Shown here one piece after another: positions 479 to 46,727 of a stretch of DNA of 47,367 nucleotides. Each line of letters starts with the position of its first letter. The stretch's first letter is position 1. A model generated the notes under the pieces. It saw only the letters and a program-made list of their open reading frames with translations, was not told where the DNA came from and searched no databases. Source of the stretch: Photorhabdus khanii NC19. Lineage in GTDB: Bacteria > Pseudomonadota > Gammaproteobacteria > Enterobacterales > Enterobacteriaceae. The stretch spans positions 313,705-361,071 of the forward strand of contig NZ_AYSJ01000014.1 of NCBI RefSeq assembly GCF_000517265.1. The letters are read 5' to 3'. The translations under genes were made by a program, and so were the position numbers.

Positions 479-3400
479 ATGGATAAGATAAATAATTTAA
501 GTCAAGAAAAAGGCAGACAACTTCTGCGGAAAATTAAACAACGTAATTCGGGAAAAAGAAAAATAATAACTCAAAAATATGACAATAATTTAGTTTCTTT
601 TTCGCAACGTAGGTTGTGGTTTCTGGATAAAATGGAAACAAAAAACACTAACTATAATATTCACTTATGTTTTTCTATTATTGGTAAACTCCAGGCCGTT
701 GTTCTCTGTGAAGCTTTGAAGAAAATTGTTGAACGCCATGAAAGCTTGCGTACAGTCTATCAGGAGATAGATGGGGAGATATTACAGGTAGTATTAGTTC
801 CTTCGCAATTTGAGGTGCCAGTAATCGATATTGCTGGGTTGGATGAGGTAAAAGTGGAAAACATTCTGGTAACAGAAGCAAGGAAAGCATTTGATCTTTC
901 TTTGGATCTGATGCTGCGTGCCACATTGTTTCGGTGTTCAGAGCAAGAGCATCTGTTATTGTTGATGGTACATCACATTGCGGCAGATGGGTGGTCATTG
1001 GGGATTATCAGTCATGAATTGAACTTGCTTTATGAAGCGGGTCTGAAGGGAGCACCGTATCCTCTGATGCCGTTAGCACTACAGTATAGAGACTATTCTC
1101 ATTGGCAGCGGGATCAGCTTCAGAATGGTAGTTTAAAAGAAGCTGAATGGTATTGGTTGGAACAGTTAAAAGGGTTACCGGCGGTGCACAGTCTGCCGTT
1201 GGATCATCCTCGATCAGTAGAACAGAGGTTCCGTGGAGCAGTTCACCGTCAGACGCTGAACGAGGAGTTGACAGCGAAGCTAAACTGTTTGAGCCAGGCG
1301 CAAGGAGTCACTCTGTTTATGACATTGCAGACGGCCTTTGCTGTCTTGCTTTCCCGCTACAGCAACGAAACAGATATTGTGATGGGAACTCCTGTTGCGG
1401 GAAGGGAGCTGGTAGAGTTGGAAAATCTGGTAGGTCTGTTTGTCAACACGTTGGTATTAAGGACCGATCTGTCTGGAAATCCTCGTTTCAGTGAACTGCT
1501 GGAACAGACAAAGGTAATGGCACTCAATGCCTATACGTATCAGGATTATCCGTTTGATTTACTAGTAGAGAAATTGAATCCTGTAAGATCACTGAGTTAT
1601 AACCCGGTATTTCAGATTATGTTCATTTTTCATAATCATGATAAGGGAAAGATTAAGTTATCAGATTTAGAAACGAGGTATAGAGATTTTGCGACTAATA
1701 ATACTAGGTTTGATTTAAGTTTAATTCTTTTCCCCAATGAAAAAAACATTGAGATAAGTTGGGAATTTGATATCGATATTTTCAATGTATCGATGATAAA
1801 AAGTATGGCATCAGTATTCAGATGTATTATTGAAGACATCATTTTGGATTTAAATAAGCCAGTAGATAAAATTTCATTTATGCCTTTAGAGGAAATGAAT
1901 CGACAGTTTGATATTTCTTTTTGTGAAGATAGTTGTAAAGATTTTTTAATGCAAAGTTTGCAAGAACAATTTGAGGCACAAGTGGCACGGACGCCGGAGC
2001 AGGTGGCGTTGATTTACCGGGAAACGGCGCTGAGTTACCGGGCGTTGAATGCGCGGTCGAACCGGCTGGCGCATGCGCTGAGGTGCAGGTATGCAAAGGA
2101 GACCGGCGGGGCGTTGGTAGCGGATACGCTGATAGGGCTGTATGTTGAGCGGGGTCTGGAGATGGTAACGGGTATGCTGGCGATATTGAAGGCGGGCGGG
2201 GCGTATGTGCCGCTGTCCCCGGAATATCCGGCAGAGCGGGTGGCGTGGATGCTGGCAGATACGGGGTCGCGGTTGGTCTTGACGCAGGGGGCCTGCCGTT
2301 CGCAGCTGGAAGGGGTGATAGCGGGGATGGCGCAGCCGCCGGGATTATTGGTGGTGGATGATGAGGAGGCGGTATCCGGGTATGCGGAGGAGAACCCGGT
2401 CAGGAGAAGTGGCGGTGAAGATCTGGCGTATGTGATTTACACCTCGGGCACCACCGGGCGACCGAAGGGGGTAATGGTGCCTCATGCAGGTGTTCTGAAT
2501 CGTATTCACTGGATGCAGGAGCACTATCCGCTGGATAGTCATGACCGAGTGTTGCAAAAAACCCCGTATACGTTTGATGTTTCAGTATGGGAATTGCTCT
2601 GGGCGAACTGGACGGGAGGGGCTATCGTGATGGCAGAGCCGGGAAGTCATAAAGAGCCGGAGCAAATTTATCGGCAGTTAGTGGAAAATAAAATCACGAC
2701 CCTGCATTTCGTACCGACCATGCTGTCGGGATTCTGCCATGCGCTGCAAAGTATGAAATTAACACTCCCGGAGACGGTTAAGCAGATATTTTGTAGCGGT
2801 GAAGCGTTAACACGGGAGCAAGTTAAAGCGTATGAGCAAATAAAACATCCGGGAACTCGGTTGCATAATCTGTATGGCCCGACAGAAGCATCGATAGATG
2901 TGAGTTACTTTGATGATGTAAATTCGTCGCTTTCGGTAATTCCGATAGGGCGAGCGATCAGTAATACACGCTTATTAGTCCTGTCACCTGGAGGAATGCT
3001 GTGTCCGGTCGGTGTCCCTGGCGAGTTGTATCTTGGCGGGGTGGGGCTGGCGCGAGGTTACCTGAATCAGCCGGCATTGACGGCGGAACGGTTTGTGCCG
3101 AACCCGTTTGCGACAGAGTCAGAACGGGCTGAGGGATTGACCCGGCTTTATCGTACCGGTGACCGGGTGCGCTGGTTAGCGGACGGGACACTGGCCTATC
3201 TTGGCCGGCTGGACAGCCAGATTAAATTACGGGGGTTCCGTATCGAGCCGGGTGAAATTGAATCGCTCCTGCGTACGGTGCCCGGTGTGGCCGATGCCGT
3301 GGTTCAGCTGCGTGAAGACCATCCCGGTGAAAAACGGCTGGCGGCTTATCTGGTGGCCGAGCCTGACGACCAGTCCGGTCCGGCCTTGTTGACACGCGGT

Positions 3401-6400
3401 CATCACACCCTGACTACCCGGCTGCCCGACTATATGCACCCCGCCGGCTGGGCGCTGCTGCCGGCCCTGCCCCTGATGCCCAGCGGCAAACTGGACTGGC
3501 AGGCGCTGCCGGTGCCGGCGCCGCTGCCGCAGGAGCCGGCGGGGTATGTTGCGCCGGTCAGTGAAGCCGAACGCCTGTTGTGTGATATCTGGCAGGCGGC
3601 CCTGCATCTGCCGCAGGTCGGGGTGAACGATAACTTCTTTACGCTGGGCGGGGACTCCATTCTGGCGATTCAGGTGACCTCGCGGGCGGTACGGGCCGGG
3701 CTGGCGGTCAGTGTGCGCCAGTTGTTTGAACACAAGACGGTGCGGGGACTGGCGGCGCATCTGGGGGCGGTTACGGCGGTGTCGCAGGCGGCCCTGCGGG
3801 GGGAGGTTGGGCTGCATCCGGTCCAGCAGCGCTTCTTCGATGAAACGCCGGCTGACTGTCACCACTATAACCAGTCGCTGCGGGTCAGTGTGCCGGCGGA
3901 TTTCAGTCTGCCCCGGCTGGTGCAGCTGGTAACGGCGCTGTATGAACGTCATGACGGGTTGCGGCTGCGTTACCGGCGGGGGGCGGGGGGACGCTGGTTT
4001 GGGCAGTATGATGAAACGCCGTTGGCCTTACAGGTGGCGGCGAGTATTCAGCACCGGCGGTTCTCGGGCGAGGGGCAGGTGCTGGCGGCCCGGGCCGCGC
4101 AGCGGAGTCTGTCGCTGGAAAAGGGGCCGCTGTTGCGGGTGGTGTACTTTGATGAAGAGGACGGCGGGGGCACGTTGCTGCTGGTGATGCATCACCTGAT
4201 AGTGGACGGGGTGTCGTGGCGTATTGTGCTGGATGATATGGCGGTGGGGTATCGTCAGATAGTGGCGGGCGAGGCGGTCAGGCTGGCACCGAAAACCAGT
4301 AGTTATGCGCAGTGGCTGGCGCGTTTGCAGGCGTATGCCGGGAGTGAGGCATTGCAGGCGGAACGGGAGTACTGGCAGGCGCAGCTGTCGGCCACGGGAG
4401 ACGGGCTGGCGGTGGATTATCCCGGGGCGGGGGTGTCGTTACAGGCGGACAGCGAGGAAGTGGTTATCCGCCTGACGGAGGCGGAGACCGGGCAGTTATT
4501 GCAGACGGCGGGAGCGGCCTACCGAACCCGGGTTGATGAGTTGTTACTGGCCGGGGTGTTGCAGGGGTTCTGGCGCTGGAGCGGTCAGGGCGAGTTGTGG
4601 GTCTGGCTGGAAGGTCATGGGCGGGAGCTGTTGTTTGATGAGCTGGATACCAGTGGCACGCTGGGGTGGTTTACGTCGGTGTACCCGGTGAGGCTGTCGC
4701 TGACGGCCGCCGGGGGGCTGGCGGGGTTAATCCGGCAGGTGAAGGAAACGTGTCGGGGGGTGCCGCATCATGGGATAGGGTACGGTATTTTGCGTTATCT
4801 GGCCGGCGACCCGGCACTGGCGGCGGCGGAAGCGGCGGGCGGGCCGGCAGTGGTGTTTAACTACCTGGGTCAGTTTGATGGGGGCGAAGGGGGCCTGTTT
4901 ACGCCGGTGCCGGGTGAAACGGGTGAGCCGGTGAGCGGGCAGCATGAACGGCATCACCGGTTAGGGTTGAACGGCTGGGTGGCCGGGGGCCGTCTGCATC
5001 TGGTGCTGGATTACAGCCGGCGGGAGTACGAGCGGGTCACGATGGTGGGGCTGGGTGAGGCGATAGAACAGGGGTTGCAGGCGGTGACGGCGCACTGCGT
5101 GGCGGTCGGGCATGGGGGGTATACGCCGGCGGATTTTCCGCTGGTGCGGGTGTCAGAGTCGCAGTTGTCGGCCTGGGAGCAGCAGTACCCGGGGTTAGAG
5201 GACCTCTATCCGGCGACGCCGATGCAGGCGGGGATGTTGTATCACGACCAGCTGTCGGGGGAGAGCGGGGGTGTGTATCTGTGTCAGACATTGGTGGTCC
5301 TGGAGGGGTCGCCGGATATTGCGCGGTTACGGTGGGCCTGGGAAACGGTGGTGCAGCGGCATGCGGTGTTGCGCACGCAATTTGTGGCGGACAGTGAGGG
5401 GGGCCTGGTGCAGATGGTGCGTTCCCCGGTGACGGTGAGGTTGCCATGGTCGGAGGCGGACTGGTCGGGGCTGACGGAGGCGGAGCAGGCGGTGGCGAGT
5501 GAGGCGTGGCGCCGAGAGGACCGGGCACGGGGATTGGATGTGACGGCAGCGCCGCTGATGCGGATAGGATTAAGGGTGTGTGGCGGCGGGCGTTACCGGC
5601 TGTTGTGGACATGCCATCATATGTTGCTGGACGGGTGGAGCGGTCCGCTGCTGTGGCAGGAGATACAGCGGTTGTACCGGGAAGGGGAGACGGCAGCGCT
5701 GCCGTTACCGGTGGCGTATAAGGAGTATATTGCCTGGCTGGGCAGGCAGGACAGGGAACGGGCACGAGCCTTTTGGCGAACGGAGTTATCGGGGGTGGAA
5801 GGGCCGACGTCGTTGCATGTGGAGCGGGTATCGCGGGGAGGGGCGGAGACGGCGGGGAGGAGGCACACGGTCAGGCGGGTGTTATCACGGGCGGAGACGG
5901 CGCGGTTGCAGCAGGTGGCGCGGCGGAGTCAGACGACGATGAGTACGCTGTTGCAGTGTGCGTGGGGGTATCTGCTGCACAGTTACAGCGGCGAGGAGAC
6001 GGTGGTGTTTGGTCTGACGGTATCGGGTCGTCCGGCGGAGGTGGCCGGGGTGGAGGGGATGGTGGGATTGTTAATCCAGACGGTGCCGGTGAGGATGGAG
6101 TTTGGTGAGGGGGTCGGTCTGGATACCTGGTTGCGGGCCCGGCATAGCCGGCAGGCGGCGTACACGGAATACGGTTATCTGGGGCTGAGTGAGATCCGGC
6201 GGTTGAGTGAGGTCTCGGGAGAGCAGGGGTTGTTTGAGAGTCTGCTGGTGTATGAGAATTACCCGGTAGATGAACGAAATGAACAGATTGAAGAGGCACT
6301 ATCAATCAAAGGTCTCCATAGTTATATGGAAACTAATTATAAAATAACGTTACAAATAGTTCCTGAGGAGGAACTGGAAATAAGAATAAAGTATTTCGCC

Positions 6401-8401
6401 GATGTTATTGATGAAGTCTATGTTAAGGATATGCTCGTAGGGATGTATGAGTTATTGATTAAAATGTCATACTTTAGCAGTGATACATCATACCGGCAGT
6501 TAACGATGTTTTCTGAAAAAGATCATAAAAATCGACTAGCTATAATTTATGGGAAAAGTTATATTCATGAAGTAGATATAGGTATTCATGAGCTCTTTGA
6601 AAAACAGGTGTATAAGACACCAGAGAAGAAAGCAATTGTTTGTGGACAAACTTCCATAAGTTACGTTGAGTTAAACACTAAAGCTAACTTTCTCTCAAGT
6701 AACCTAATGAAAATTGGGATAGCTAAAGATGATAGAGTAGCTATTTACATGGAGAAATCCATAGATTTTGTGATAAGTATTTTGGCTGTATTAAAAAGTG
6801 GCGCGTCATATATTCCTATTGATGCTAATACCCCGATTCAACGTATTAAATATATTATAGAAGACTCAAGGCCAAAAGTTTTTATTTCTAAAGAAAATGA
6901 ATTAGATGAATTGCATAAGTTTAATTTAAATCTTAATAAATTAGATATTGATAAGGTCTTCTCTTCCTATTGCAGAAACTTTGATGCGTATGAATATGAA
7001 AGTAAAAATATGTTTTCAAAATGTTCTCATATAATTTATACATCAGGTACTACAGCGGAACCTAAGGGAGTTATGGGAACGCACGAGTCTGTCATAAACA
7101 GGATCACATGGATGAATAGACGTTTTCCAGTGTTAAAAAACAGAAATGCATGCCATATAACTGATTTTTCATTTATTAGAGCCGTATGGGAACTTTTTGC
7201 TCCATTGTTACATGGTGTTGAACTTCATTTAATTAATGTAAATTATTATCAGTCTCTTGATGATTTCTCGGAATTCTTAGTGAATAAGAATATACAATCA
7301 ATCATTACAACACCTACGATGTTGGGTGAGATTATACGGATGCCAAAATATGTATTGGATGGATTTAAAAAACTCTCCTATTGGTTTATAAGTGGTGAGA
7401 AATTCCGTATGGATATTGCTAATAAAGCCATTAATCTATTTCCAAAAATGTCTTTTGTTAATCTTTATGGTTCGACAGAAAATATGTCGGATGTATGTTT
7501 TTATGAATTAGATAATAATATTAAGGATAAGGAAGTACTTATAGGGAAACCGATAGATAATACAGCGGTTGCTATTGTTAATAGAGATTATGAGCTTCTC
7601 CCTGTAGGAGCTGTGGGTGAAATATGTGTATCTGGTCGCTCTTTAGCATTGGGTTATTTCGGTGGGGGAAAAATTCAGAGTGCTAAACTCATAGAGGGTA
7701 AACGTAATCTATTTAATGGTGAAAAGTTTTATTGCACTGGTGATTATGGTATTTGTAGATATGATGGTAATATAGAGTTTATAGGTAGAAAAGATGAATT
7801 AATTAAAATTCGTGGATATAGAGTAAGTATAACAGAAATAGAAAGTGCCTTCTTATCTTTGGAGTATATTGATTCGATATCCGCGTTTTATAGAAAAAAG
7901 AGTGGTAGAATATCAGCATATATTATTTTGTCTGATGTTAATGGAAAAGATAGTGATGTTTTTTTAGATAGAATAAATAGAGACATTCGTGATTTTATTT
8001 CTTACAGAATATTACCGATAGATATTATATTTTGTCAGGAAATACCTAGAACAAGCAATGGAAAACTAGATAAAACTTTATTTGATACTGAGCATTATGT
8101 TGCTATAGAGCATGAACCGCAACAACAACCATTGAATTATATAGAACAATATCTTTATAATATTTGGAGCGATATATTAGCAAGAGAACCGGAAAATATC
8201 CATATGACATTTTTTGAGTCTGGTGGAAATTCTATATCAGCAATGAGAATGATATCGAAAATATATGATGAATTAGGTGTAAAAATTCCCATGAAATCAA
8301 TATTTGATAATTTGACGGTATATAAGTTAGCAAAGATATTATCCGATAATTTAAAAGAGGAGATAGAAGAAATACTGAAGGATGAAGAGATTAAAAAATA
8401 A
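479..8401 (+). CDS. Non-ribosomal peptide synthetase C-A(Ser)-PCP-E-C-A(atypical)-PCP
   Basis: A 2640-residue bimodular synthetase. Domains in order: condensation (about 40-470, HHIAADG with His165/166), adenylation (about 495-1015, Lys1004), carrier (GGDS, Ser1060), epimerisation (about 1095-1540, HHLIVDG at 1238-1244), condensation of the kind that follows an E domain (about 1550-2010, HHMLLDG at 1713-1719), adenylation (about 2030-2535, Lys2529) and carrier (Ser2585). There is no thioesterase or reductase. The first A domain reads DVWHFSLIDK, the serine code, so the module should deliver D-Ser. The second reads IRWIFSLSDK: the Asp that normally holds the alpha-amino group is Ile2233, so an ordinary alpha-amino acid is unlikely. 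Base composition is a mosaic: AT-rich to about 1965, GC-rich to about 6255 with a dip inside the first A domain, AT-rich again to the end. The N-terminal C domain expects an upstream donor, probably NRPS-2. No MbtH gene is nearby. Confidence 0.95.
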   Translation: MDKINNLSQEKGRQLLRKIKQRNSGKRKIITQKYDNNLVSFSQRRLWFLDKMETKNTNYNIHLCFSIIGKLQAVVLCEALKKIVERHESLRTVYQEIDGEILQVVLVPSQFEVPVIDIAGLDEVKVENILVTEARKAFDLSLDLMLRATLFRCSEQEHLLLLMVHHIAADGWSLGIISHELNLLYEAGLKGAPYPLMPLALQYRDYSHWQRDQLQNGSLKEAEWYWLEQLKGLPAVHSLPLDHPRSVEQRFRGAVHRQTLNEELTAKLNCLSQAQGVTLFMTLQTAFAVLLSRYSNETDIVMGTPVAGRELVELENLVGLFVNTLVLRTDLSGNPRFSELLEQTKVMALNAYTYQDYPFDLLVEKLNPVRSLSYNPVFQIMFIFHNHDKGKIKLSDLETRYRDFATNNTRFDLSLILFPNEKNIEISWEFDIDIFNVSMIKSMASVFRCIIEDIILDLNKPVDKISFMPLEEMNRQFDISFCEDSCKDFLMQSLQEQFEAQVARTPEQVALIYRETALSYRALNARSNRLAHALRCRYAKETGGALVADTLIGLYVERGLEMVTGMLAILKAGGAYVPLSPEYPAERVAWMLADTGSRLVLTQGACRSQLEGVIAGMAQPPGLLVVDDEEAVSGYAEENPVRRSGGEDLAYVIYTSGTTGRPKGVMVPHAGVLNRIHWMQEHYPLDSHDRVLQKTPYTFDVSVWELLWANWTGGAIVMAEPGSHKEPEQIYRQLVENKITTLHFVPTMLSGFCHALQSMKLTLPETVKQIFCSGEALTREQVKAYEQIKHPGTRLHNLYGPTEASIDVSYFDDVNSSLSVIPIGRAISNTRLLVLSPGGMLCPVGVPGELYLGGVGLARGYLNQPALTAERFVPNPFATESERAEGLTRLYRTGDRVRWLADGTLAYLGRLDSQIKLRGFRIEPGEIESLLRTVPGVADAVVQLREDHPGEKRLAAYLVAEPDDQSGPALLTRGHHTLTTRLPDYMHPAGWALLPALPLMPSGKLDWQALPVPAPLPQEPAGYVAPVSEAERLLCDIWQAALHLPQVGVNDNFFTLGGDSILAIQVTSRAVRAGLAVSVRQLFEHKTVRGLAAHLGAVTAVSQAALRGEVGLHPVQQRFFDETPADCHHYNQSLRVSVPADFSLPRLVQLVTALYERHDGLRLRYRRGAGGRWFGQYDETPLALQVAASIQHRRFSGEGQVLAARAAQRSLSLEKGPLLRVVYFDEEDGGGTLLLVMHHLIVDGVSWRIVLDDMAVGYRQIVAGEAVRLAPKTSSYAQWLARLQAYAGSEALQAEREYWQAQLSATGDGLAVDYPGAGVSLQADSEEVVIRLTEAETGQLLQTAGAAYRTRVDELLLAGVLQGFWRWSGQGELWVWLEGHGRELLFDELDTSGTLGWFTSVYPVRLSLTAAGGLAGLIRQVKETCRGVPHHGIGYGILRYLAGDPALAAAEAAGGPAVVFNYLGQFDGGEGGLFTPVPGETGEPVSGQHERHHRLGLNGWVAGGRLHLVLDYSRREYERVTMVGLGEAIEQGLQAVTAHCVAVGHGGYTPADFPLVRVSESQLSAWEQQYPGLEDLYPATPMQAGMLYHDQLSGESGGVYLCQTLVVLEGSPDIARLRWAWETVVQRHAVLRTQFVADSEGGLVQMVRSPVTVRLPWSEADWSGLTEAEQAVASEAWRREDRARGLDVTAAPLMRIGLRVCGGGRYRLLWTCHHMLLDGWSGPLLWQEIQRLYREGETAALPLPVAYKEYIAWLGRQDRERARAFWRTELSGVEGPTSLHVERVSRGGAETAGRRHTVRRVLSRAETARLQQVARRSQTTMSTLLQCAWGYLLHSYSGEETVVFGLTVSGRPAEVAGVEGMVGLLIQTVPVRMEFGEGVGLDTWLRARHSRQAAYTEYGYLGLSEIRRLSEVSGEQGLFESLLVYENYPVDERNEQIEEALSIKGLHSYMETNYKITLQIVPEEELEIRIKYFADVIDEVYVKDMLVGMYELLIKMSYFSSDTSYRQLTMFSEKDHKNRLAIIYGKSYIHEVDIGIHELFEKQVYKTPEKKAIVCGQTSISYVELNTKANFLSSNLMKIGIAKDDRVAIYMEKSIDFVISILAVLKSGASYIPIDANTPIQRIKYIIEDSRPKVFISKENELDELHKFNLNLNKLDIDKVFSSYCRNFDAYEYESKNMFSKCSHIIYTSGTTAEPKGVMGTHESVINRITWMNRRFPVLKNRNACHITDFSFIRAVWELFAPLLHGVELHLINVNYYQSLDDFSEFLVNKNIQSIITTPTMLGEIIRMPKYVLDGFKKLSYWFISGEKFRMDIANKAINLFPKMSFVNLYGSTENMSDVCFYELDNNIKDKEVLIGKPIDNTAVAIVNRDYELLPVGAVGEICVSGRSLALGYFGGGKIQSAKLIEGKRNLFNGEKFYCTGDYGICRYDGNIEFIGRKDELIKIRGYRVSITEIESAFLSLEYIDSISAFYRKKSGRISAYIILSDVNGKDSDVFLDRINRDIRDFISYRILPIDIIFCQEIPRTSNGKLDKTLFDTEHYVAIEHEPQQQPLNYIEQYLYNIWSDILAREPENIHMTFFESGGNSISAMRMISKIYDELGVKIPMKSIFDNLTVYKLAKILSDNLKEEIEEILKDEEIKK
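2480..2995 (+). other. Composition dip covering the Ser-specificity subdomain of A1
   Basis: Inside the GC-rich half of NRPS-1, GC content falls by eye from about 60% to the mid-40s from just after core motif A3 (YTSGTTGRPKG, nt about 2434-2475) until just before the GELYLGG motif (nt about 3020). This block encodes the pocket residues D,V,W,H,F,S,L,I,D. The coincidence of composition break and pocket boundaries suggests a subdomain exchange. Confidence 0.55.
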
Positions 8402-8515
8402 TTTTAATCATGTTTATATTTTTAAATTTCTGGTGTTTGTTTTTAATGACAGGGAAAAACTGACTCTTCTTCATAGCCAATTTTATTTTAATTATTTGAT
8501 AAAAGGAAGAATAAT

Positions 8516-11500
8516 ATGAATTGCTCGGGGCGGGCCTCATGTGTTTTGATAGGCAACACTTCTATGGTGATAGAATGTGCAGAACAGTTATTACGTCGAA
8601 ATGTTGAGATAAAGGCAGTTATTACCGGTGATAATCTTTTATCTACATGGGCTTTTGAATGTGGGATTAGATGTTTTACCACAATAGATGAGTTAGATGA
8701 TTTAGTGTCTATAGAGCCATGCTCTTGGTTGTTTTCAATTATTAATCCGATATTGCTGCCTTTATCTTTGATAGAAAAGTTTCTACATGGGGTATTTAAT
8801 TACCATGATGCACTTTTGCCCCGTTATGCGGGCTCTTATTCTACCGCATGGGCTGTTCTAAATGGTGAAAAGCAGCATGGAATAACTTGGCATAGAGTTG
8901 ATGAGGTTATTGATAGGGGGGATATAGCAGTAAGAATAGTTGTAAATGAAGTAAAGGATGATACAACTTTTTCTTTGAATTTAAAATGTTTTCAGGCTGC
9001 AATAGAAGGGTTTAGTATTTTATTGGATAAGCTTTTAAATAATACATTAGAGTTGATAGCTCAGAATAAGGCAGAAAGAACCTATTATGCTAAGGATTTT
9101 AAACCAGTATCATGTGGTTTTCTGCTCTGGAATTTAAAGGCAAAAGAATTATCAGCTTTAGTTAGATCGATGAATTTTGGCGAGGATAATTATAATCCTA
9201 TTACTACGCCTAAAATGTTATTGAATAATGACATAGTATATATATCTGAACTTCTGGTAACTACTCAGCTTTCTCTTTGTTCTCCGGGAACAGTACTCAA
9301 TATTAATGAAAGCGGTATGGTTGTCGCGACCAGCGATTATGATGTAATAATTAATAATTTTAGAGATAATTTTGGCAATAAGTTAAGTGCATCGGAGTTT
9401 TTTCCTGAAATAGGGAATGTCTTACTCTTACCTGATATACAGGACTTGAAAGAATTAAATAAACTTTTGAGAGAATTTTCTGCGAGTGAAGAATTTTGGA
9501 TTGAAAAACTGATTAATTTTAACAGATTAGATTTTCCATTGCTTGGTAAGAATATTGATTTATATAAAGCTAAATATTCTACTTCTGATTGGAATAATAC
9601 TGATTTTCTTAATGAATTTAACTTTCAGGATAAAATTAATCTTATAGTTTCTTCTATTATTGTTTATTTGTATCGAATGTCTGGGCAGCATGATATACAA
9701 TTAGGAATAATAAATGATTGTTCTGTTGCGTCTCAAGATATCTTTTTAAGTAAAATAGTGTCATCTATTATTCCTGTCAATTTAACTATTAATGAGAATT
9801 TTTGTTTTTTTGATGTCATGAAGAAATTTAATGAAGGAATTAGTGACTTATTAGAAAAAGGAAGCTTCCCTTATGATATTTTTATAAGAAAACCAGAACT
9901 TAATCCAATTCATTGGGGAGTAATTATTCAGTATGTGACGAATCACTCGCTTAGTATCAATAGCTATCATGATGATCTGTGCACAGGTCTGAATGAAAGT
10001 ATAATAAAAGGAGGATGTTTAATTTTTCAGATAAATACAGATACCGGTGAGTTTAGATATTTGTATGATGATATTTTTCTTTATAAAAAGAATTATATGT
10101 GTGATTCTATTTTGTTAATATTGAATACTATTGTTGAAAAAGAGAATCTATTTCAATCTATAAATAAAATAGATTTCATGGTTGTTGAAGAGAGAAAACT
10201 TTTACTGGAAAATTGGAATCATGTAGAAGAGTATTATCCAAATAATCTTTGTTTGCATCAATTATTTGAAGAACAGGTAATTCGTTATCCTACTGCAATA
10301 GCACTTGTTCATGGTGAAATTGAGCTGACTTATGACACTCTAAACCGTCGGGCTAACCAGTTGGCTCATCGTCTTATCCAGATGGGGGTGACTCCTGATT
10401 CTTTGGTTGCACTTTGTGTTGAACGCAGCCCGGCAATGATCATTTCCCTGTTGGGTATTTTGAAAGCCGGGGGAGCTTACCTGCCTATGGAGCTTGGCAG
10501 TCCACAGCAGCGTCTATGTCAACAGTTAATGGATGCTTCGCCAATACTACTGCTTACCGATAAGGTAGGTCATCGGCGGTTGGAAAGGTATAAGCCTGAG
10601 GAGTTGCCAGAGCTGGAGTTTTCTGTGATGGAAAATGAGGAGGGGAATTTTAGTGAAGATAACCCAGATCCTTATATAACCAAGGTATGTGAGAAGCATT
10701 TAGCTTATGTTATTTATACTTCGGGCTCAACAGGGAAACCGAAAGGGGTGATGGTTGAGCATGATCAAATTGTTAATATTGTCCACTGGCATATTTTTCG
10801 ATTTCGATTGGGTTTAGGTAGCCGTAGTGCTATGACGACAAGTCTATCTTTTGATGCTAGTGCTGGTGATATATGGCCAGCATTATCCTGCGGTGGAACG
10901 TTGGTGCTTGCACCCAGTCAGCTTGCCAACAATGTACCTGTTTTGCTTGAATGGTTGAACAATCAAGCATTGGATATCACCTTTTTAGTTAGCCCAATTG
11001 CAACTTTGGCGATTGAGGAGGGTAAATTAAATCATCATTTACGTTATTTGCTAATTGGGGGAGATCGTTTTACGTTCCCTCTTATATCGCTTCCATCTCA
11101 ATTAACGTTGATTAATAGTTATGGTCCGACAGAAACCACGGTATTAGTGACCTCTGGTGAGCTTGGTCACAATGATCATGTTGTTCACATTGGCCGTCCG
11201 GTAGCCAATGCACGTATTTATTTATTGAATGAATACAGGGAACCAGTACCACTGGGTTGTGTCGGGGAAATTTATATTGGTGGCGTTGGGGTGGCAAGAG
11301 GTTACCTTAAAAATATTAAACTGACCATAGAGCGTTTTATGGTGGATCCTTTTAGTCCCATATTAGGTGCACGTATGTATCGTAGTGGAGATCTTGCGCG
11401 CTATCTTCCAGATGGTCGAATTGAATATGTTGGCCGCAATGATCAACAAATAAAATTACGAGGTTACCGGATTGAACTTGGAGAAATTGAAAAACGACTG

Positions 11501-14500
11501 AATCAACATTCTGATATCAGTGATAGTGTTGTTGTGCTCAGGGAAGATATAGTAGGTGATAAACGGTTAGTTGCCTATTTTATTCCTATAAAAGAACAGA
11601 AGAAAATGGGGAAAAATTTATTAAATAGGATGTTGCGTAATTTTCTCTCACAAACATTGCCAGACTATATGTTGCCTTCTGCCTATGTGTTGCTGGAATC
11701 ATTTCCGTTGACTTCGAATGGAAAAATCAACCGGCAAGCTTTGCCTAAACCGGATATAGAGGCTGTGCGCTTTATCACTTTTGAGGAACCGAAAGGTGAG
11801 GTTGAACAGCGTTTATCGTTACTTTGGTCAGAGCTTTTAGATGTGGCTCAAATTGGACGGCAAGAGGATTTTTTTGAAATTGGAGGACATTCGTTACTTG
11901 CTGTACGATTGCTTAATAGAATTAATCAGTTATTTTGTATTTCTTCGACTCTTGAACGTCTTTATAAGCATCGTACTTTGGCTGATCAAGCAGATATGTT
12001 GGTCAAATTACAGGGGCAAGAAGATGTGTTAGTGAAACTGCCTCCTGTAGTACGCTTTCCTCGCGTAAATAAATTACCTTTATCCGCTTCTCAGCGGAGG
12101 TTGTGGTTTTTAATGCAAATGGACCCGAAGGAATATTCTTATAATGTTCCTTTACTTTTAGAAATATGTAGTTGGGTTAATATTGAGGCCCTACGTATTA
12201 CATTAGGTAAGCTTTTCGAACGTCACGAAGTATTACGGGCAACCTTTTCCGTAGAAAATGGAGAACCTTACATCCAGTTATTACCCGCTGACTCTTGCAT
12301 ACCGTTTACTGAGAGTAATCTTAGTGACCAAAGAAATATATCTAAGCAGCGATTGAATAAACTGTTTCAGTTTGAAGCTTGTCAATTATTCGATATGGAT
12401 CAAGGTCCATTGTTTAGAGGGCATTTATACCGGATGGATAGTGAAGAGAATTATCTTCTATTAACTTTTCATCATATTATATTCGATGGCTGGTCTGTCA
12501 ATATTCTGCTAAATGAACTTAATATATTATATCAAGCAGAATGTAATGGTTTGGAGGCACAATTGCCGGAATTAGATATTCAGTATATCGACTATGCACT
12601 CTGGCAATCACAGTGGTTAACCGATGAATATCTTAAAATGTATGCAATGTATTGGCAAGAAAAGCTCTCTGGTGTTATTCCATTGTTGCCATTGCCAATT
12701 GACAGGCCGAGGGTAGAACAACAGAACTTTATGGGTTCCGCCTTACCTATTGAAGTTGGGGCATTACTTTCTTTGCAATTAAAACAATTAAGTCAATGCT
12801 ATGAGACAACATTATCCACTACTTTGCTTTCAGCCATAGCCATTGTTCTTGCCCGTTTGTCGGGTCTTGATGATGTCATTGTTGCAATTCCAGTTGCTAA
12901 TCGTGGTAGGTATGAATTAGAACCGTTAATTGGTTTCTTTGTTAATACGTTAGTACTGCGGATTGATCTCTCGGATGAGCCTGATGGAGCAACATTGCTT
13001 GCTCGCGTGAAACAGACTGTACTTGAAGCGCAGGATAATCAAGAGTTACCGTTTGAGAAGGTTGTGGAAATTGTTAACCCGCCGCGTAGTATGGCTTACA
13101 CGCCTTTATATCAAGTTATGTTTTCATGGGAAGAGAATGTTAAACACGAATTTCCTGGATTCAGGGTACATACGAAAGAAATTTTTTTAAATAGAGTGAA
13201 AACAGACTTAGAGTTTATTTTCAGTGAGAATGAACATGGAATAATTACTGGGCAAATTCGATATGCTTGTGCTGTTTTTGATGTTGATACAATCGAGAGA
13301 TTTCGCATATATCTGTTAAGCATATTGCAATCTATGGTAGAAGGTATCTATCTCCCTGTTTTTACATATAATATGATTGGAGAAGAGGAACGAAAACTTT
13401 TACTGGAAACGTGGAATCAAGCAGAAAAATGTTATCCAAATAATCTCTGTCTGCACCAATTATTTGAAGATCAGGTGATACGTCACCCTGATGCAATAGC
13501 ACTTGTCTATAATGAGACGGTGCTTACCTATGAGACTTTAAATCGTCAGTCTAATCAACTGGCTCATTGTCTTATTGAGATGGGTGTTATACCTGATTCT
13601 CTGGTTGCCCTTTGTATCAAACGTAGCCCAGCAATGGTTATTTGTCTGTTGGCTGTTCTGAAAGCAGGTGGCGCCTATTTGCCTCTAGATCCTGGTAGCC
13701 CGGCACAGCGTCTGTTTCAACAGCTGGAGGATGCTTCGCCAATACTACTGCTTACCGATAAGGTAGGTCACCGGCGGTTGGAAGGGTATAAGCCTAATGA
13801 GTTGCCAGAACTGGAACTTTTCACATGGCAAGATAAGTGGGATAATTTCAGTGAAGATAATCCGGATCCTAATGTAACAAGAGTATGTGAAAAGCACTTA
13901 GCTTATGTTATCTATACCTCCGGCTCAACAGGCAAGCCCAAAGGAGTGATGGTCGAGCATGTTCAGGTAGTGAGATTGTTTCAGTCAACTGATTCTATTT
14001 ATAAATTTAACGAAAAGGATATATGGTGCCTTTTTCATTCCTATGCATTTGATTTCTCTGTTTGGGAAATATGGGGAGCTTTGCTTTATGGAGGAAAGCT
14101 GGTTATTGTTCCAGAACAGTCCGTTAAAGACACGAAGGAATTTTATGAATTGGTTTGTAGAAAGAGAATTACTATTTTAAATCAAACTCCTAGTGCTTTT
14201 GAACTTTTTATTGATGAGCAGGGAAAAAGAAGATTACCGAATGATTTAAGATATGTTATTTTTGGTGGAGAAGAATTATCTCCATCAATGCTTTCTGGGT
14301 GGTATTTTGAACCTTCTTCACCTAAAACACAATTCGTCAATATGTATGGAATTACTGAAATTACTGTGCATGCAACTTATCATATCATTCAGATGTCCGA
14401 TATAAAATCTTCTTGTAAATTAATAGGAAAACGTTTGAAAGATCTATGTATTTATATATTGGATACTTACCTTAGACCTGTTCCGACCGGTGTGAAAGGA

Positions 14501-15289
14501 GAGATATATATCGCTGGGCCTGGAGTAGCTCGTGGATATTTAAATAGGCCAAGATTAACACAAGAAAGATTTATACGTAATCCATTTTCATCGACTGATG
14601 AGATAATGTATCGCACAGGTGATATAGCTTGTTATTTGAATGATGGAAATATTGAGTACCTTGGTCGTAATGATCGGCAAATACAGTTAAGAGGTTTCCG
14701 TATTGAATTAAAAGAAATTGAAGCTATAATAACAGCATTAGAAGGGGTTTTAAAAAGTGTTGTTGTTATTAGAGGAGAAGGCGATAATAAGTATTTATCT
14801 GCCTATTTAGTATGTTCTAACGTTTATGTTTGGAGTAAAATAAAAATTAAAGAAAAATTATCTTATACTTTACCAGAATATATGGTACCAACCACATATA
14901 CCTTTCTTGATTCCATACCTCTTACTATCAATGGAAAAGTAAACTATTCTTTGTTACCAGAACCAGATCGCAATGACGAATGTAGTTATGTGGCACCAAG
15001 TAATATTCTGGAAGTGAAAATATGCCAGTTATTGAGTCAACATCTAAAGTTAGAGCGTGTGGGGATATTTGATGATTTTTTTCAATTGGGGGGTAATTCT
15101 ATATTAGCTGTCAGATTAGTTGCAGCTATGAACGATTCTTTGAATATAGCTGTCGAGTTGTCTGATATTTTCCTTGGACGCAATGTATTTGGAATTGCTA
15201 AAATGCTTCAAAACAGAGGAAAAAGCGAGGATAGAATACCTAAAATTTTCTTAAGAAATAAAAATAATAAAGGAGGTTTGGTAATTTAA
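8516..15289 (+). CDS. NRPS with N-terminal formyltransferase: F-half C-A-PCP-C-A(Thr)-PCP
   Basis: A 2257-residue synthetase 114 bases after NRPS-1, with a good ribosome binding site (AAAGGAAG). Residues 1-310 resemble methionyl-tRNA formyltransferase/ArnA, with the catalytic trio kept as Asn95, His97 (NYHDALLP) and Asp133 (IDRGDI) and a C-terminal OB-like part. Residues about 315-560 look like only the second lobe of a condensation domain, without HHxxxDG, so it cannot condense. Then come A (about 575-1075), carrier (GGHS, Ser1126), full C (HHIIFDG, His1319/1320), A (about 1645-2150) and carrier (GGNS, Ser2195). There is no release domain. The second A pocket reads DFWNIGMVHK, the threonine code. 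The first reads DAGVLGSVLK, which I cannot assign. As in linear gramicidin synthetase, an N-terminal F domain marks a chain-starting protein, so this enzyme probably feeds formyl-X-Thr to NRPS-1. Confidence 0.93.
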   Translation: MNCSGRASCVLIGNTSMVIECAEQLLRRNVEIKAVITGDNLLSTWAFECGIRCFTTIDELDDLVSIEPCSWLFSIINPILLPLSLIEKFLHGVFNYHDALLPRYAGSYSTAWAVLNGEKQHGITWHRVDEVIDRGDIAVRIVVNEVKDDTTFSLNLKCFQAAIEGFSILLDKLLNNTLELIAQNKAERTYYAKDFKPVSCGFLLWNLKAKELSALVRSMNFGEDNYNPITTPKMLLNNDIVYISELLVTTQLSLCSPGTVLNINESGMVVATSDYDVIINNFRDNFGNKLSASEFFPEIGNVLLLPDIQDLKELNKLLREFSASEEFWIEKLINFNRLDFPLLGKNIDLYKAKYSTSDWNNTDFLNEFNFQDKINLIVSSIIVYLYRMSGQHDIQLGIINDCSVASQDIFLSKIVSSIIPVNLTINENFCFFDVMKKFNEGISDLLEKGSFPYDIFIRKPELNPIHWGVIIQYVTNHSLSINSYHDDLCTGLNESIIKGGCLIFQINTDTGEFRYLYDDIFLYKKNYMCDSILLILNTIVEKENLFQSINKIDFMVVEERKLLLENWNHVEEYYPNNLCLHQLFEEQVIRYPTAIALVHGEIELTYDTLNRRANQLAHRLIQMGVTPDSLVALCVERSPAMIISLLGILKAGGAYLPMELGSPQQRLCQQLMDASPILLLTDKVGHRRLERYKPEELPELEFSVMENEEGNFSEDNPDPYITKVCEKHLAYVIYTSGSTGKPKGVMVEHDQIVNIVHWHIFRFRLGLGSRSAMTTSLSFDASAGDIWPALSCGGTLVLAPSQLANNVPVLLEWLNNQALDITFLVSPIATLAIEEGKLNHHLRYLLIGGDRFTFPLISLPSQLTLINSYGPTETTVLVTSGELGHNDHVVHIGRPVANARIYLLNEYREPVPLGCVGEIYIGGVGVARGYLKNIKLTIERFMVDPFSPILGARMYRSGDLARYLPDGRIEYVGRNDQQIKLRGYRIELGEIEKRLNQHSDISDSVVVLREDIVGDKRLVAYFIPIKEQKKMGKNLLNRMLRNFLSQTLPDYMLPSAYVLLESFPLTSNGKINRQALPKPDIEAVRFITFEEPKGEVEQRLSLLWSELLDVAQIGRQEDFFEIGGHSLLAVRLLNRINQLFCISSTLERLYKHRTLADQADMLVKLQGQEDVLVKLPPVVRFPRVNKLPLSASQRRLWFLMQMDPKEYSYNVPLLLEICSWVNIEALRITLGKLFERHEVLRATFSVENGEPYIQLLPADSCIPFTESNLSDQRNISKQRLNKLFQFEACQLFDMDQGPLFRGHLYRMDSEENYLLLTFHHIIFDGWSVNILLNELNILYQAECNGLEAQLPELDIQYIDYALWQSQWLTDEYLKMYAMYWQEKLSGVIPLLPLPIDRPRVEQQNFMGSALPIEVGALLSLQLKQLSQCYETTLSTTLLSAIAIVLARLSGLDDVIVAIPVANRGRYELEPLIGFFVNTLVLRIDLSDEPDGATLLARVKQTVLEAQDNQELPFEKVVEIVNPPRSMAYTPLYQVMFSWEENVKHEFPGFRVHTKEIFLNRVKTDLEFIFSENEHGIITGQIRYACAVFDVDTIERFRIYLLSILQSMVEGIYLPVFTYNMIGEEERKLLLETWNQAEKCYPNNLCLHQLFEDQVIRHPDAIALVYNETVLTYETLNRQSNQLAHCLIEMGVIPDSLVALCIKRSPAMVICLLAVLKAGGAYLPLDPGSPAQRLFQQLEDASPILLLTDKVGHRRLEGYKPNELPELELFTWQDKWDNFSEDNPDPNVTRVCEKHLAYVIYTSGSTGKPKGVMVEHVQVVRLFQSTDSIYKFNEKDIWCLFHSYAFDFSVWEIWGALLYGGKLVIVPEQSVKDTKEFYELVCRKRITILNQTPSAFELFIDEQGKRRLPNDLRYVIFGGEELSPSMLSGWYFEPSSPKTQFVNMYGITEITVHATYHIIQMSDIKSSCKLIGKRLKDLCIYILDTYLRPVPTGVKGEIYIAGPGVARGYLNRPRLTQERFIRNPFSSTDEIMYRTGDIACYLNDGNIEYLGRNDRQIQLRGFRIELKEIEAIITALEGVLKSVVVIRGEGDNKYLSAYLVCSNVYVWSKIKIKEKLSYTLPEYMVPTTYTFLDSIPLTINGKVNYSLLPEPDRNDECSYVAPSNILEVKICQLLSQHLKLERVGIFDDFFQLGGNSILAVRLVAAMNDSLNIAVELSDIFLGRNVFGIAKMLQNRGKSEDRIPKIFLRNKNNKGGLVI
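10531..10597 (+). repeat. Intragenic direct repeat, copy 1 (first A domain of NRPS-2)
   Basis: A stretch of 67 bases that matches 13729-13795 with only two differences (T/C at 10573 and A/G at 10586). It is the best-conserved part of a longer similarity that covers the C-A linker and the front of the A domain up to core A3 in both modules. Confidence 0.9.
13729..13795 (+). repeat. Intragenic direct repeat, copy 2 (second A domain of NRPS-2)
   Basis: Partner of 10531-10597, lying 3198 bases downstream in the same gene. The proteins stay close from EERKLLLE to YTSGSTGKPKGVMVEH and then diverge sharply in the specificity region, so the two A domains share their front end but not their pocket. 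Confidence 0.9.
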
Positions 15290-15645: not shown

Positions 15646-16469
15646 TATACCCAAGAAACTTCAAGATGCAGTTTTTAGCACCTGAAAATGGTCGTTAATT
15701 CTAGACGTTAGCGAGTCCGCTATATCAGGTAGCGTTGTGGTGAAAAATTTGAAGACTTTGTCTCGAAATTCATGTTTATCCGCGAAATAACGGTTATTTC
15801 GAACATGTTCATTCATGACCTTCCATAATCGCTCTATTGGGTTTAAATTTGGGCTGTATGGCGGAAGGTAATGTAATTCAATATTGCTAACATAAGCCCA
15901 CTCCTTCACAAGAAAAGGAGGGGTTCGTCTTTCGCTGTGACTTTAAGATTTTCATAATATTCAATAAATTGTCGCTGTTTCTCTGCCTCGAATTTATGAG
16001 GAACGCCACACGGTTTTTTATAAGAAAAACCCTGACGGTGTAGCCATTTATTCATGCCGGGAATGCTAAAGGTAATATTCCAGAGCTGAGCGACATAGGC
16101 CACGATTTCATGGGTGTGATGGAAAAGATGTTGAGATAAGTGGTTGACTAAAAAATCAGTTTGTTCTCGGGAAAGTAAACTGTCAGACCCCCCATTACCC
16201 GATTTAAGTTTACCGTGATTAAGGTAATCACTGATATGGCGGTCAACCGTGGTCTGATGGAGTCGCAATGCCTGGGCTATCATAACAGAACTCCACCCTT
16301 CAGAAGCCCGAAGGATAGCTTTTATTCTGTCTCGTACTTGACCATCGCGAGTGGTGTCGTGAAGACGCTCAAGTTTGATTTTTTGTTCTGATGTAATAAA
16401 TATTTTCATAGCGGGGATAATGATCTCCATTTCGGATAAAATCAAGCATCTTCAATGATTACGGGTATA
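15646..16469 (-). mobile_element. IS630-family element with internal deletion
   Basis: The ends are imperfect inverted repeats: TATACCC-AAGAAACTTCAAGATGC at the left and, read on the minus strand from the right end, TATACCCGTAATCATTGAAGATGC. Both sit at TA dinucleotides, as expected for this family. The element is about 824 bases, shorter than the usual 1.0-1.2 kb, because the middle of the transposase gene is missing. It probably can no longer move by itself but keeps both ends. Confidence 0.8.
15661..16445 (-). pseudogene. IS630 transposase, frameshifted by internal deletion
   Basis: The N-terminal part (16445-15906, most likely from the ATG at 16409) has the helix-turn-helix domain and ends DEPLLFL-stop. 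The C-terminal part (15909-15661) has the DDE end with YLPPYSPNLNPIERLWK, which carries the final catalytic Glu. In intact relatives some 80 residues with the first two catalytic Asp lie between these parts. Here they are gone and the junction is out of frame: TTCTTGTGAAGGAG can be read as FL-stop or VKE. The product would be inactive. Confidence 0.85.
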
Positions 16470-17155: not shown

Positions 17156-17962
17156 ATGTCTGAAATTATGAAACCTGAGAATGAATGTCCGTTTGATCCT
17201 AAGCAATATGAATGCCATTGCCTCGTTGCTCCGCTCGGTTCTTTTTCTTGGGCTTTGATTCAATTAAAACTACGTAAGCGTGTTGCTCGTTCTGTTTGGG
17301 GTGATAAAGGTATGTATTTGGCTATCACTCCACGTGTAAATGATTTAACCGTTGAGAAAGATAGTGCTTATGCTGTTGATGGTGTAGCCGTTGGCACTAA
17401 ATATGATTATTTGACGCATATTGATCTACGCAATGAACATGGCAATTTTGTACCATGGCAGCCAACGCAAGAAGATATGATGGCGTGTGATTGGGAATTT
17501 TTTGAAGATAAGGCTAAGCCTGAACCGCAGCCAGAGCCGAAACTAGAGACTCCAAAGTATAGTTTAGCTTTTGATGTAAAGACTGAAGTAGCATCACTGT
17601 CCGGTACTGGCTTGTGGGGAGCGCAACCAACAAATGTTGAAAATAATCTAACAACAAATGGAAGGCCTTACAATATTTATTGGTTTGGTCCTGGGTATGG
17701 TACTGCGGCAGCTAATCAACTCAGAATAGATTTTAAGGCTGTAACTGGCTCGGCTGCTCAAGTTCCAGATTTGGATAATAAAACTTTGATAACTACTGTA
17801 GATGGCAAAAAGTATAATCTTGGAACTTTAACAGAAAAAAGTAGCAACTCAACAGGCCAAGAGGTGCATATTCACTATCGGAATGGTGACACAGCAGAAC
17901 TTGGTAAGTTGTTAGAACAAGTAGGAAAAACATTCCGCTTACATTGCGGATGGTATGATTAA
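17156..17962 (+). CDS. DUF2829/Tad2-like domain protein with unknown C-terminal domain
   Basis: A 268-residue protein, ATG start with AAGGAA eight bases upstream. Residues about 28-118 fit the DUF2829 (Thoeris anti-defence 2-like) fold: SWALIQLKLRKRVARSVWGD, then GMYLAI, a middle strand, and PWQPTQEDMMACDWEFFE at the end. Phage Tad2 proteins bind and sequester cyclic ADP-ribose type signals made by Thoeris; whether this one does is unknown. A linker rich in Pro, Glu and Lys (about 119-133, PEPQPEPKLETP) leads to a C-terminal domain (134-268) rich in Gly, Asn and Tyr that I do not recognise. There is no signal peptide or membrane segment. The gene stands alone between the NRPS debris and the flagellar genes, with no phage genes next to it. 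Confidence 0.7.
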   Translation: MSEIMKPENECPFDPKQYECHCLVAPLGSFSWALIQLKLRKRVARSVWGDKGMYLAITPRVNDLTVEKDSAYAVDGVAVGTKYDYLTHIDLRNEHGNFVPWQPTQEDMMACDWEFFEDKAKPEPQPEPKLETPKYSLAFDVKTEVASLSGTGLWGAQPTNVENNLTTNGRPYNIYWFGPGYGTAAANQLRIDFKAVTGSAAQVPDLDNKTLITTVDGKKYNLGTLTEKSSNSTGQEVHIHYRNGDTAELGKLLEQVGKTFRLHCGWYD

Positions 17963-20579: not shown

Positions 20580-21656
20580 ATGGCACAAGTCATCAACACC
20601 AACAGCTTGTCCTTGCTGACTCAGAATAACCTGAATAAATCCCAGAGTGCTTTGGGTAACGCTATCGAGCGTTTGTCTTCTGGTCTGCGTATCAACAGCG
20701 CGAAGGATGACGCTGCTGGTCAAGCGATCGCTAACCGTTTCACTGCAAACATTAAAGGTTTGTCTCAGGCAGCACGTAACGCTAACGACGGTATCTCTAT
20801 TGCACAGACTACCGAAGGTGCGCTGAACGAAATCAATACCAACTTACAGCGTATTCGTGAACTGACTGTTCAGGCGCAAAATGGCAGCAACTCTGAAAGC
20901 GATATTAGCTCTATTAATGACGAAGTGACTCAACGTTTCGACGAGATTGATCGTATCTCTAAACAAACTCAATTTAATGGCGTTAATGTCTTAAGTAAAG
21001 ATAGTGAATTGACCATCCAGGTTGGTGCTAACGATAATGAAACTATCACCATCAATCTGAAACAAATCGACAAAGGAACACTGGGGCTGGACAAATTTAA
21101 TGTTAACTCATTAGTTGGAGTACATGTTGGCGTGGAAGTTAAAGAAATTCCAAAAGGTGACGGTAGCCCTGACAAGACTCCAGTAAAACCAGTAACTGAT
21201 CTTGATAGTGTTAAAGATCCCAAAGTCGTTAAATCCATCGATAAAGATGGTAAGGAAATTGAGGGCGAATACGTTATAACCGGTAAAGATAAAGAAACTG
21301 GTGAAGACGTATATTATAAAGCCACTATTGACAATGAGGGTAACGTTAAGGTAGGCGTTAAAACAAACCTGATTGACAAGAATGCTAAGCCATTAGGCGA
21401 TTTAGACAATGCTCTGTCACAAGTTGACAAACTGCGCAGCTCTCTGGGTGCTATCCAAAACCGTTTTGAATCTACCGTTAACAACCTGAACAACACCGTT
21501 AACAACCTGAGCGCTGCTCGTAGCCGTATCCAAGATGCTGATTACGCGACCGAAGTGTCTAACATGAGCCGTGGTCAAATCCTGCAACAGGCGGGTACTG
21601 CGGTTCTGGTTCAGGCTAACCAGGTTCCTCAAACTGTCCTGTCTCTGCTGCGTTAA
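20580..21656 (+). CDS. fliC: Flagellin FliC
   Basis: 358 residues, main filament subunit. The start MAQVINTNSLSLLTQNNLNK at 20580 is preceded by AAAAGGAA; an open frame upstream overlaps the promoter and is not coding. The N-terminal D0/D1 (about 1-170, with LSSGLRINSAKDDAAGQAIA) and C-terminal D1/D0 (about 275-358, ending VPQTVLSLLR) are highly conserved. The central variable part is only about 100 residues, rich in Lys, Asp and Glu, so D2/D3 are much smaller than in E. coli (around 500 residues). Only one flagellin gene is present here. Confidence 0.97.
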   Translation: MAQVINTNSLSLLTQNNLNKSQSALGNAIERLSSGLRINSAKDDAAGQAIANRFTANIKGLSQAARNANDGISIAQTTEGALNEINTNLQRIRELTVQAQNGSNSESDISSINDEVTQRFDEIDRISKQTQFNGVNVLSKDSELTIQVGANDNETITINLKQIDKGTLGLDKFNVNSLVGVHVGVEVKEIPKGDGSPDKTPVKPVTDLDSVKDPKVVKSIDKDGKEIEGEYVITGKDKETGEDVYYKATIDNEGNVKVGVKTNLIDKNAKPLGDLDNALSQVDKLRSSLGAIQNRFESTVNNLNNTVNNLSAARSRIQDADYATEVSNMSRGQILQQAGTAVLVQANQVPQTVLSLLR

Positions 21657-21710
21657 TTTCTCGGCTAAGACAATATGTGAACCTGATTCACATAAAAATT
21701 CAAATAAATC

Positions 21711-21739
21711 AAGGATCGGCTCGCCGGTCCTTCTTTTTT
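21711..21739 (+). terminator. Rho-independent terminator of fliC
   Basis: Nine-base stem AAGGATCGG/CCGGTCCTT with a CTCG loop (one G-T pair), followed by a run of T (CTTTTTTAG). A second small palindrome, TATGTGAA-N5-TTCACATA, lies just before it at 21673-21693. Confidence 0.85.
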
Positions 21740-21902
21740 AGTCGTTTATCGTGAACAGCCTAAAATTTGTGTTACTATTAGGCGGGCAATAAATTTCGCA
21801 TAGGTGAAAAAGAAGTGCTTTTACTACATTGTTCAAACGATTGCCCTTGTTAGGGGATTGGATAATGGTAGTTAGTCTCTTATTCCAAAGGTGTCTGTTG
21901 TT

Positions 21903-22625: not shown

Positions 22626-22677
22626 CTTTTTGCTTATTTGTTTTTTGTTTAAGACTACACACAGGGCTTTATCTCTT

Positions 22678-23190: not shown

Positions 23191-23228
23191 GCTGGAAATA
23201 TAATATAGCAAAGAGATGTTCAATTTCA

Positions 23229-23263
23229 GGGGAACACATTTTCAGTGTGTTCCCCTTCGCTTT
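23229..23263. terminator. Terminator between fliZ and putA
   Basis: A perfect ten-base stem GGGGAACACA/TGTGTTCCCC with a seven-base loop, followed on the plus strand by TTCGCTTTT. It ends the fliAZ unit and, since the genes converge, may also serve putA, which stops at 23271. Confidence 0.88.
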
Positions 23264-45976: not shown

Positions 45977-46030
45977 ATTTGACCTTTATAACATTATTAC
46001 CTTATAAAAATTTGAGTAAATAGACGACAT

Positions 46031-46702: not shown

Positions 46703-46727
46703 ATTTATTGTTATATAATATCCTGAT

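Follow-up and report, generated by a model that had tools for sequence, protein, structure and literature searches.

A predicted two-gene, formyl-started peptide synthetase line in Photorhabdus khanii with no built-in release domain and an unusual last adenylation domain

Among nonribosomal peptide synthetases (NRPSs), the linear gramicidin synthetase LgrA carries an N-terminal formyltransferase (F) domain fused directly to its adenylation (A) domain, the alignment of which begins at residue 201–203, right after F. The anabaenopeptilide synthetase is cyanobacterial. Predicted F-started NRPSs are common in Photorhabdus, an insect-killing bacterium, and include the kolossin-type enzymes, in which F is followed by a stretch with the length of a condensation (C) domain C-terminal lobe and then by A. 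The start module of the anabaenopeptilide synthetase is given as an F-started NRPS in the available part of a review (PMC8949500).

We analyzed a stretch of 47,367 nucleotides from Photorhabdus khanii NC19 (hereafter the window), which belongs to contig 14 of a genome of 5.23 Mb and holds two neighboring, co-oriented NRPS genes that are 114 bases apart. The features identified are listed below, where T is a carrier domain and E an epimerization domain.

479..8401, + strand: NRPS-1, 2640 aa, C-A(Ser)-T-E-C-A4-T (intact ORF, Pfam, motifs)
590..1897, + strand: first C domain of NRPS-1 (C1), HHIAADGWS intact; presumably of the LCL type, by its start motif
1940..6230, + strand, approximate edges: high-GC block covering A3, T3, E and most of the second C domain (GC scan)
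1970..3490, + strand, approximate edges: A3 of NRPS-1, code DVWHFSLIDK (Ser)
3800..5098, + strand: E domain of NRPS-1, HHLIVDGVS intact; told from C by its position after T3 and, as we take it, by its motifs
5198..6517, + strand: second C domain of NRPS-1, HHMLLDGWS intact; presumably of the DCL type, by its start motif
6554..8113, + strand: A4 of NRPS-1, code IRWIFSLSDK; Ile in place of Asp235, Arg at position 236, Lys517 retained
8126..8353, + strand, approximate edges: T4 of NRPS-1, Ser2585 in ESGGNS
8516..15289, + strand: NRPS-2, 2257 aa, F-[half C, C-terminal lobe]-A1-T-C-A2(Thr)-T (intact ORF, Pfam, motifs)
8516..9415, + strand: F domain of NRPS-2, N95/H97/D133 intact (Pfam, matches to solved structures)
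9428..10231, + strand: C-terminal lobe of a C domain in NRPS-2, between F and A1, without HHxxxDG (hhalign)
10232..11785, + strand: A1 of NRPS-2, code DAGFLGSVLK (substrate X), read by eye on an alignment
12071..13405, + strand: C domain of NRPS-2, HHIIFDGWS intact
13463..14950, + strand, approximate edges: A2 of NRPS-2, code DFWNIGMVHK (Thr), read by eye on an alignment
15008..15235, + strand, approximate edges: T2 of NRPS-2, Ser2195, followed by a short basic tail and the stop
15661..16445, − strand: transposase-like ORF pair in two frames, IS630-like by eye, the larger ORF with only helix-turn-helix families in Pfam; absent at this place in Photorhabdus noenieputensis

Pfam searches found three Condensation, two AMP-binding and two PP-binding stretches in NRPS-1, and Formyl_trans_N, Formyl_trans_C, two AMP-binding, one Condensation and two PP-binding stretches in NRPS-2. 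HHxxxDG motifs were counted three times in NRPS-1 (two in C domains, one in E) and once in NRPS-2, and the carrier serines are present in all four T domains. A sequence-only reading had proposed a two-protein NRPS with an intact Asn95/His97/Asp133 triad in F, a full C domain of the non-DCL kind at the start of NRPS-1, and pocket codes for Thr (A2) and Ser (A3, followed by E), and all of these were borne out by the intact ORFs, their Pfam domains and motifs, with the type of C1 taken from its start motif. The codes also agree with the literature, as DFWNIGMVHK is tied to Thr, and DVWHLSLVDK and DVWHMSLVDK, which are close to the A3 code, are tied to Ser in the accessible part of PMC12283262.

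Since nothing precedes F in NRPS-2, the C remnant behind F lacks an active site and a loading module is absent from NRPS-1, NRPS-2 would act first and NRPS-1 second, in agreement with the earlier proposal that the starter enzyme is encoded second. Among NRPS loci, a gene order opposite to the order of action is nothing unusual in itself. The opposite assignment, NRPS-1 as the starter, was rejected, as its C1 is a full C domain, presumably LCL, with no loading module before it. The units would then be joined in the order formyl-X, Thr, D-Ser and Z, with formylation, docking between NRPS-2 and NRPS-1 and release being steps that we infer. Taken together, we put at about even the chances that the two genes form one F-started line running from NRPS-2 to NRPS-1, which would assemble formyl-X, Thr, D-Ser and then an unusual Z with no built-in release. 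The formyl-X-Thr-D-Ser-Z proposed earlier is kept for its formylating start module, Thr and D-Ser, which the domains and codes support, and is revised for Z as an ordinary residue; a tetrapeptide product and release in trans are putative.

The start of NRPS-2 differs from that of LgrA. Its F domain is an N-terminal formyltransferase with the catalytic Asn, His and Asp; A and T follow it, and no functional C domain lies ahead of them. Among solved structures, the best matches (E ~1e-20) are 5uin/5uij (formyltransferase) and 4xd1/4xcz (TDP-3-aminoquinovose-N-formyltransferase), and both F and A match LgrA by sequence, with F giving a weaker match (E 5e-7 to 1.4e-6). F domains 41–43% identical to this one occur in NRPS ORFs of the window genome and of sister Photorhabdus genomes, kolossin-type enzymes included. 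In LgrA, A follows F directly, whereas 268 residues lie between F and A1 of NRPS-2 and match the C-terminal lobe of a C domain. We aligned 16 F-NRPSs chosen among the compared loci (NRPS-2 itself, four further ORFs of Photorhabdus, four cyanobacterial, two labeled Tatlockia and five others), in all of which F and A are separated by 235–268 residues. The joint profile of the 16 rows corresponds to columns 193–459 of a 463-column C-domain profile (local hhalign, E 2.5e-20), and an HHxxxDG-like pattern is absent from the stretch in 15 of the 16, the remaining one (L009) having an unconvincing string. The start module of NRPS-2 is therefore predicted to combine F with half of a C domain. The absence of a working N-terminal C domain, as had been claimed, is therefore right with respect to HHxxxDG, with the amendment that the C-terminal lobe is kept after F. 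The available parts of the open literature on F-NRPSs do not mention a half C domain behind F, and a prior description may well exist. Among 392 genomes of the family, the start region of NRPS-2 is matched in six at E ≤ 1e-60, with more than 35% identity only in the window genome and P. noenieputensis. The rule that F can only start a chain does not hold in general: two relatives, L006 (included in the 16) and L018 (outside them), have a C domain ahead of F within one ORF, which apparently puts F in mid-chain; NRPS-2 itself has nothing upstream of F.

Both proteins end soon after a T domain, with a short acidic tail before the stop in NRPS-1, and neither holds a thioesterase (TE), a reductase or a terminal C domain, with reductases sought inside the two proteins. 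No thioesterase family is among the four and six Pfam families listed for NRPS-1 and NRPS-2, which agrees with the earlier claim that no release domain is present in cis, and none of the 16 thioesterase matches in the genome (E ≤ 1e-8) lies in the locus; examples in short ORFs elsewhere are at C4:75279 (279 aa), C13:435388 (255 aa) and C13:584185 (305 aa). The TubC_N docking domain is absent from the Pfam lists of both proteins, and a single one was found in the whole genome (E ≤ 0.001), in an ORF of contig C4 outside the locus. Promoter and terminator scans gave no excess over shuffled sequences (15 versus 13.4 and 7 versus 8.3, respectively).

The larger ORFs beyond the left end of the window encode transposases (Pfam DDE_Tnp_1 domains in one, another partly masked), and after them come fliE and other flagellar genes. 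Further NRPS genes on this side, which the sequence-only reading had listed as a possible refutation, were not seen among the ORFs, with one stretch masked. The comparison genome of P. noenieputensis (G005) has the same gene pair beside fliE without insertion sequence (IS) elements, with one 83-aa ORF between fliE and NRPS-1 at a 60-aa cut-off, and the ORF after NRPS-2 is related to the one at that place in the window genome. Because both genes stand beside fliE there without IS elements, the pair looks like the whole locus, and the IS elements of the window genome probably arrived after the island. No other NRPS, TE or biosynthetic ORF was seen between fliE and the right-hand flagellar genes in either genome. 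That a TE or other genes were lost to IS elements is unlikely, given that the IS-free locus of G005 has only the 83-aa ORF and the same downstream neighbor. Between the island and the flagellar genes, positions 17156–17962 (+) encode a 268-aa protein with Tad2-like (Thoeris anti-defence 2-like) and DUF7823 matches, to which an ORF at 9777–10601 of L001 is related. Farther right, two adjacent PAS_4-LuxR type regulators lie within 45281–47363 (−), and a third ORF (46728–47363) is similar by eye.

The nearest named relative of NRPS-2 is from P. noenieputensis DSM 25462 (L001), at 96%. The genes fliE and fliA are present in all 12 Photorhabdus genomes compared, and the gap between them is 4.2–6.1 kb in ten, 25.1 kb here and divided over two contigs in G005; judged by this distance, 10 of the 12 lack the island, G010 and G007 among them. 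Island DNA is 94.8–96.4% identical between the two carriers and longer flanking stretches are 77.6–91.4% identical, with 93.7% for a 570-base piece between fliE and NRPS-1 and 95.4% for a 65-base piece right of the island. The fliA-fliZ stretch (21401–23256), at 95.2% identity to G005, also stands above its longer core neighbors and perhaps reflects a separate recombination. In a comparison with eight of the ten island-free sites, G010 was the closest match to the flanks of G000, and G007 to those of G005 apart from a 704-base stretch nearer G008 and G001. In NRPS-2 the synonymous divergence (dS) between carriers amounts to 0.116; in NRPS-1 it is 0.132 over C1 and 0.149 over the C-terminal 751 residues. 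Among the core genes it is 0.642 for putA, 0.544 for fliF, 0.587 for fliI and 0.342 for fliG, with fliA (0.104) as low as the island. Because dS of the island (0.12–0.15) is below that of putA, fliF, fliI and fliG (0.34–0.64), the island was probably exchanged sideways between the carriers.

The dN/dS values are 0.18 for NRPS-2, 0.20 for the C-terminal 751 residues of NRPS-1, 0.23 for A4 and 0.20 for C1; for NRPS-1 they cover C1 and the C-terminal 751 residues, the middle being unassembled in G005, where contig-end overlaps did not resolve it and an equal number of modules is a presumption. Within NRPS-2 the values are uneven, with 0.35 for the half C domain, 0.30 for T2 plus tail and 0.09–0.23 for the other parts. 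An overall dN/dS of about 0.2 (0.18–0.23) suggests that the island genes are maintained and in use.

NRPS-1 is also a mosaic in base composition. The block has a GC content of 0.61 and a GC3 of 0.71 over 1946–6430, whereas C1, A4-T4 and NRPS-2 have a mean GC of 0.31–0.39 and GC3 of 0.23–0.38, with local GC up to ~0.46 in C1. GC climbs from ~0.27 to 0.6 between 1880 and 2000 and drops back between 6140 and 6320, which places the right edge inside a C domain and not in a C-A linker. We read this block as a putative exchange between synthetases; it looks as if an A-T-E-C block had been swapped naturally within a synthetase that is AT-rich elsewhere. A recent source within the window genome was not found, as the block matched only itself at E ≤ 1e-60 among the best 40 of 88 candidates scored. 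Pieces of the block are 92–94% identical on three other NRPS-gene contigs of G005. The G005 contigs end at bases matching 2320 and 6143, and a collapsed repeat is suggested because 77 terminal bases are common to two contig ends. Related NRPS fragments lie on G005 contigs C56, C63 and C67 (L048, L047 and L046, respectively), with one thioesterase match, on C56; the C domains of L046 and L047 are 62–65% identical to C1 of NRPS-1, and for the stretch tested no close DNA copy was found in the window genome.

The last A domain departs from the common pattern. Alignments to LgrA, other A domains and the nearest homologues show that the FDxS motif reads FIRA in A4, with Ile for Asp235 and Arg at position 236, and the code IRWIFSLSDK is identical in G005. 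Asp235 is present in 19 of 22 aligned A domains, the exceptions being A4, its G005 orthologue and one G008 A domain (VDTVVSFGDK). According to the available parts of PMC11355689 and PMC12283262, A domains for alpha-amino acids keep both Asp235 and Lys517; A4 has Ile235 in both carriers and retains Lys517. The loss of Asp235 from A4 in both species makes it probable that Z is something other than an ordinary alpha-amino acid, and the earlier treatment of Z as just another residue is not upheld.

Codes like VDWVISLADK are known from beta-alanine A domains. With this code, A4 shares five of ten positions (W239, S301, L322, D331 and K517) and is similar at four, and Asp236 is replaced by Arg. In the tree, A4 is not grouped with the only VD-type domain included, its join carries a warning of possible long-branch attraction, its branch is very long (3.06 changes per column) and its letter make-up is unusual; for these reasons the beta-type likeness is a lead and not a classification, and A4 could be failing. 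By E-value, A4 is nearest in the genome to a Ser-type domain; the G008 domain comes next and a Thr-type one third. Beyond G005, relatives in the 12 Photorhabdus genomes reach only ~31–33% identity (E ≤ 1e-70), and wider searches of 394 genomes of the order (E ≤ 1e-90; three candidates per genome scored where there were many) and 369 of the class (E ≤ 1e-80; four candidates) returned the window genome only, although remote relatives may be missed by both. The core of T4 reads ESGGNS, versus LGG or IGG in the other three carrier domains.

It is unlikely, though worth weighing, that A4 is degenerate and that synthesis stalls at the tripeptide, yields formyl-X-Thr-D-Ser by hydrolysis or makes nothing. 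The loss of Asp235, the long branch and the altered T4 core point in this direction, whereas the code is identical in two species, the dN/dS of A4 is like those of A1 (0.23) and A2 (0.20), and several A-domain core residues besides Lys517 are kept. A similarly unlikely account holds that the line continues past T4, with NRPS-1 passing its chain to an NRPS or PKS encoded elsewhere that has a release domain. The short acidic tail after T4 is consistent with this, since donor docking tails are often short and acidic, and the genome contains 94 condensation-domain matches and at least one other ORF (L053) that starts with C; on the other hand, only the one TubC_N domain was found in the genome, and the gene pair forms an island common to two species.

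We consider it distinctly unlikely that the genes serve separate lines, NRPS-2 starting another synthetase and NRPS-1 taking its chain from another L-donor. The docking pair is putative and other F-started NRPS loci exist in the genome, but the two genes lie side by side in one orientation with a mere 114 bases between them, both carriers have the two together, and no further NRPS gene was seen in the island. The preferred reading remains one line from NRPS-2 to NRPS-1, with the long A4 branch, the T4 core, the uneven dN/dS, the lack of a linked TE and of TubC_N, and the unassembled middle of NRPS-1 in G005 counting against it. Within it, a more specific and improbable proposal is that A4 is a beta-type A domain in which Arg236, in place of the amine-binding Asp236, holds a carboxylate, for example that of isoaspartate activated at the Asp side-chain carboxyl; the product would be formyl-X-Thr-D-Ser-isoAsp or the like, released without a TE by attack of its own Thr or D-Ser hydroxyl, and would, if so, represent a new class of short peptide.

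The locus was not named in any title or abstract among the listed literature on Photorhabdus formyltransferases, kolossin, N-formyl products and gene clusters, and neither "formyl" nor "noenieputensis" occurs in the available main text of the cluster surveys PMC9177418 and PMC10676414. As a short line of four modules that could be expressed whole, it offers a tractable test case for formyl initiation, which matters because the F-domain-formylated NRPS products tallied in the available part of a 2022 review (PMC8949500) number only three. Its TE-less end and A4 without Asp235 also raise testable questions, namely what the last module loads without an alpha-amine anchor and how the chain leaves.

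Several other F-started NRPSs of Photorhabdus are long and have a TE in the same ORF, such as a 16367-aa ORF of G008, presumably the kolossin synthetase from its size, and a 10196-aa ORF of the window genome, assigned to an F-started locus by position, whereas the pair described here consists of two shorter proteins without TE. Asp235 is likewise missing from an A domain (VDTVVSFGDK) of an F-started region of G008 (C1:1277392–1298998), where T and TE come after it, but this region has more modules and a thioesterase; it is broken into two ORFs, the gap falling within an A domain, and we infer that they form one line. Its VDTVVSFGDK domain is ~30–32% identical to A4 and has Asp at position 236, versus Arg in A4. 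The locus belongs to a known kind, the F-started NRPSs, and is apparently complete and maintained, with two odd features, namely an end with no release domain and an A4 that has lost Asp235.
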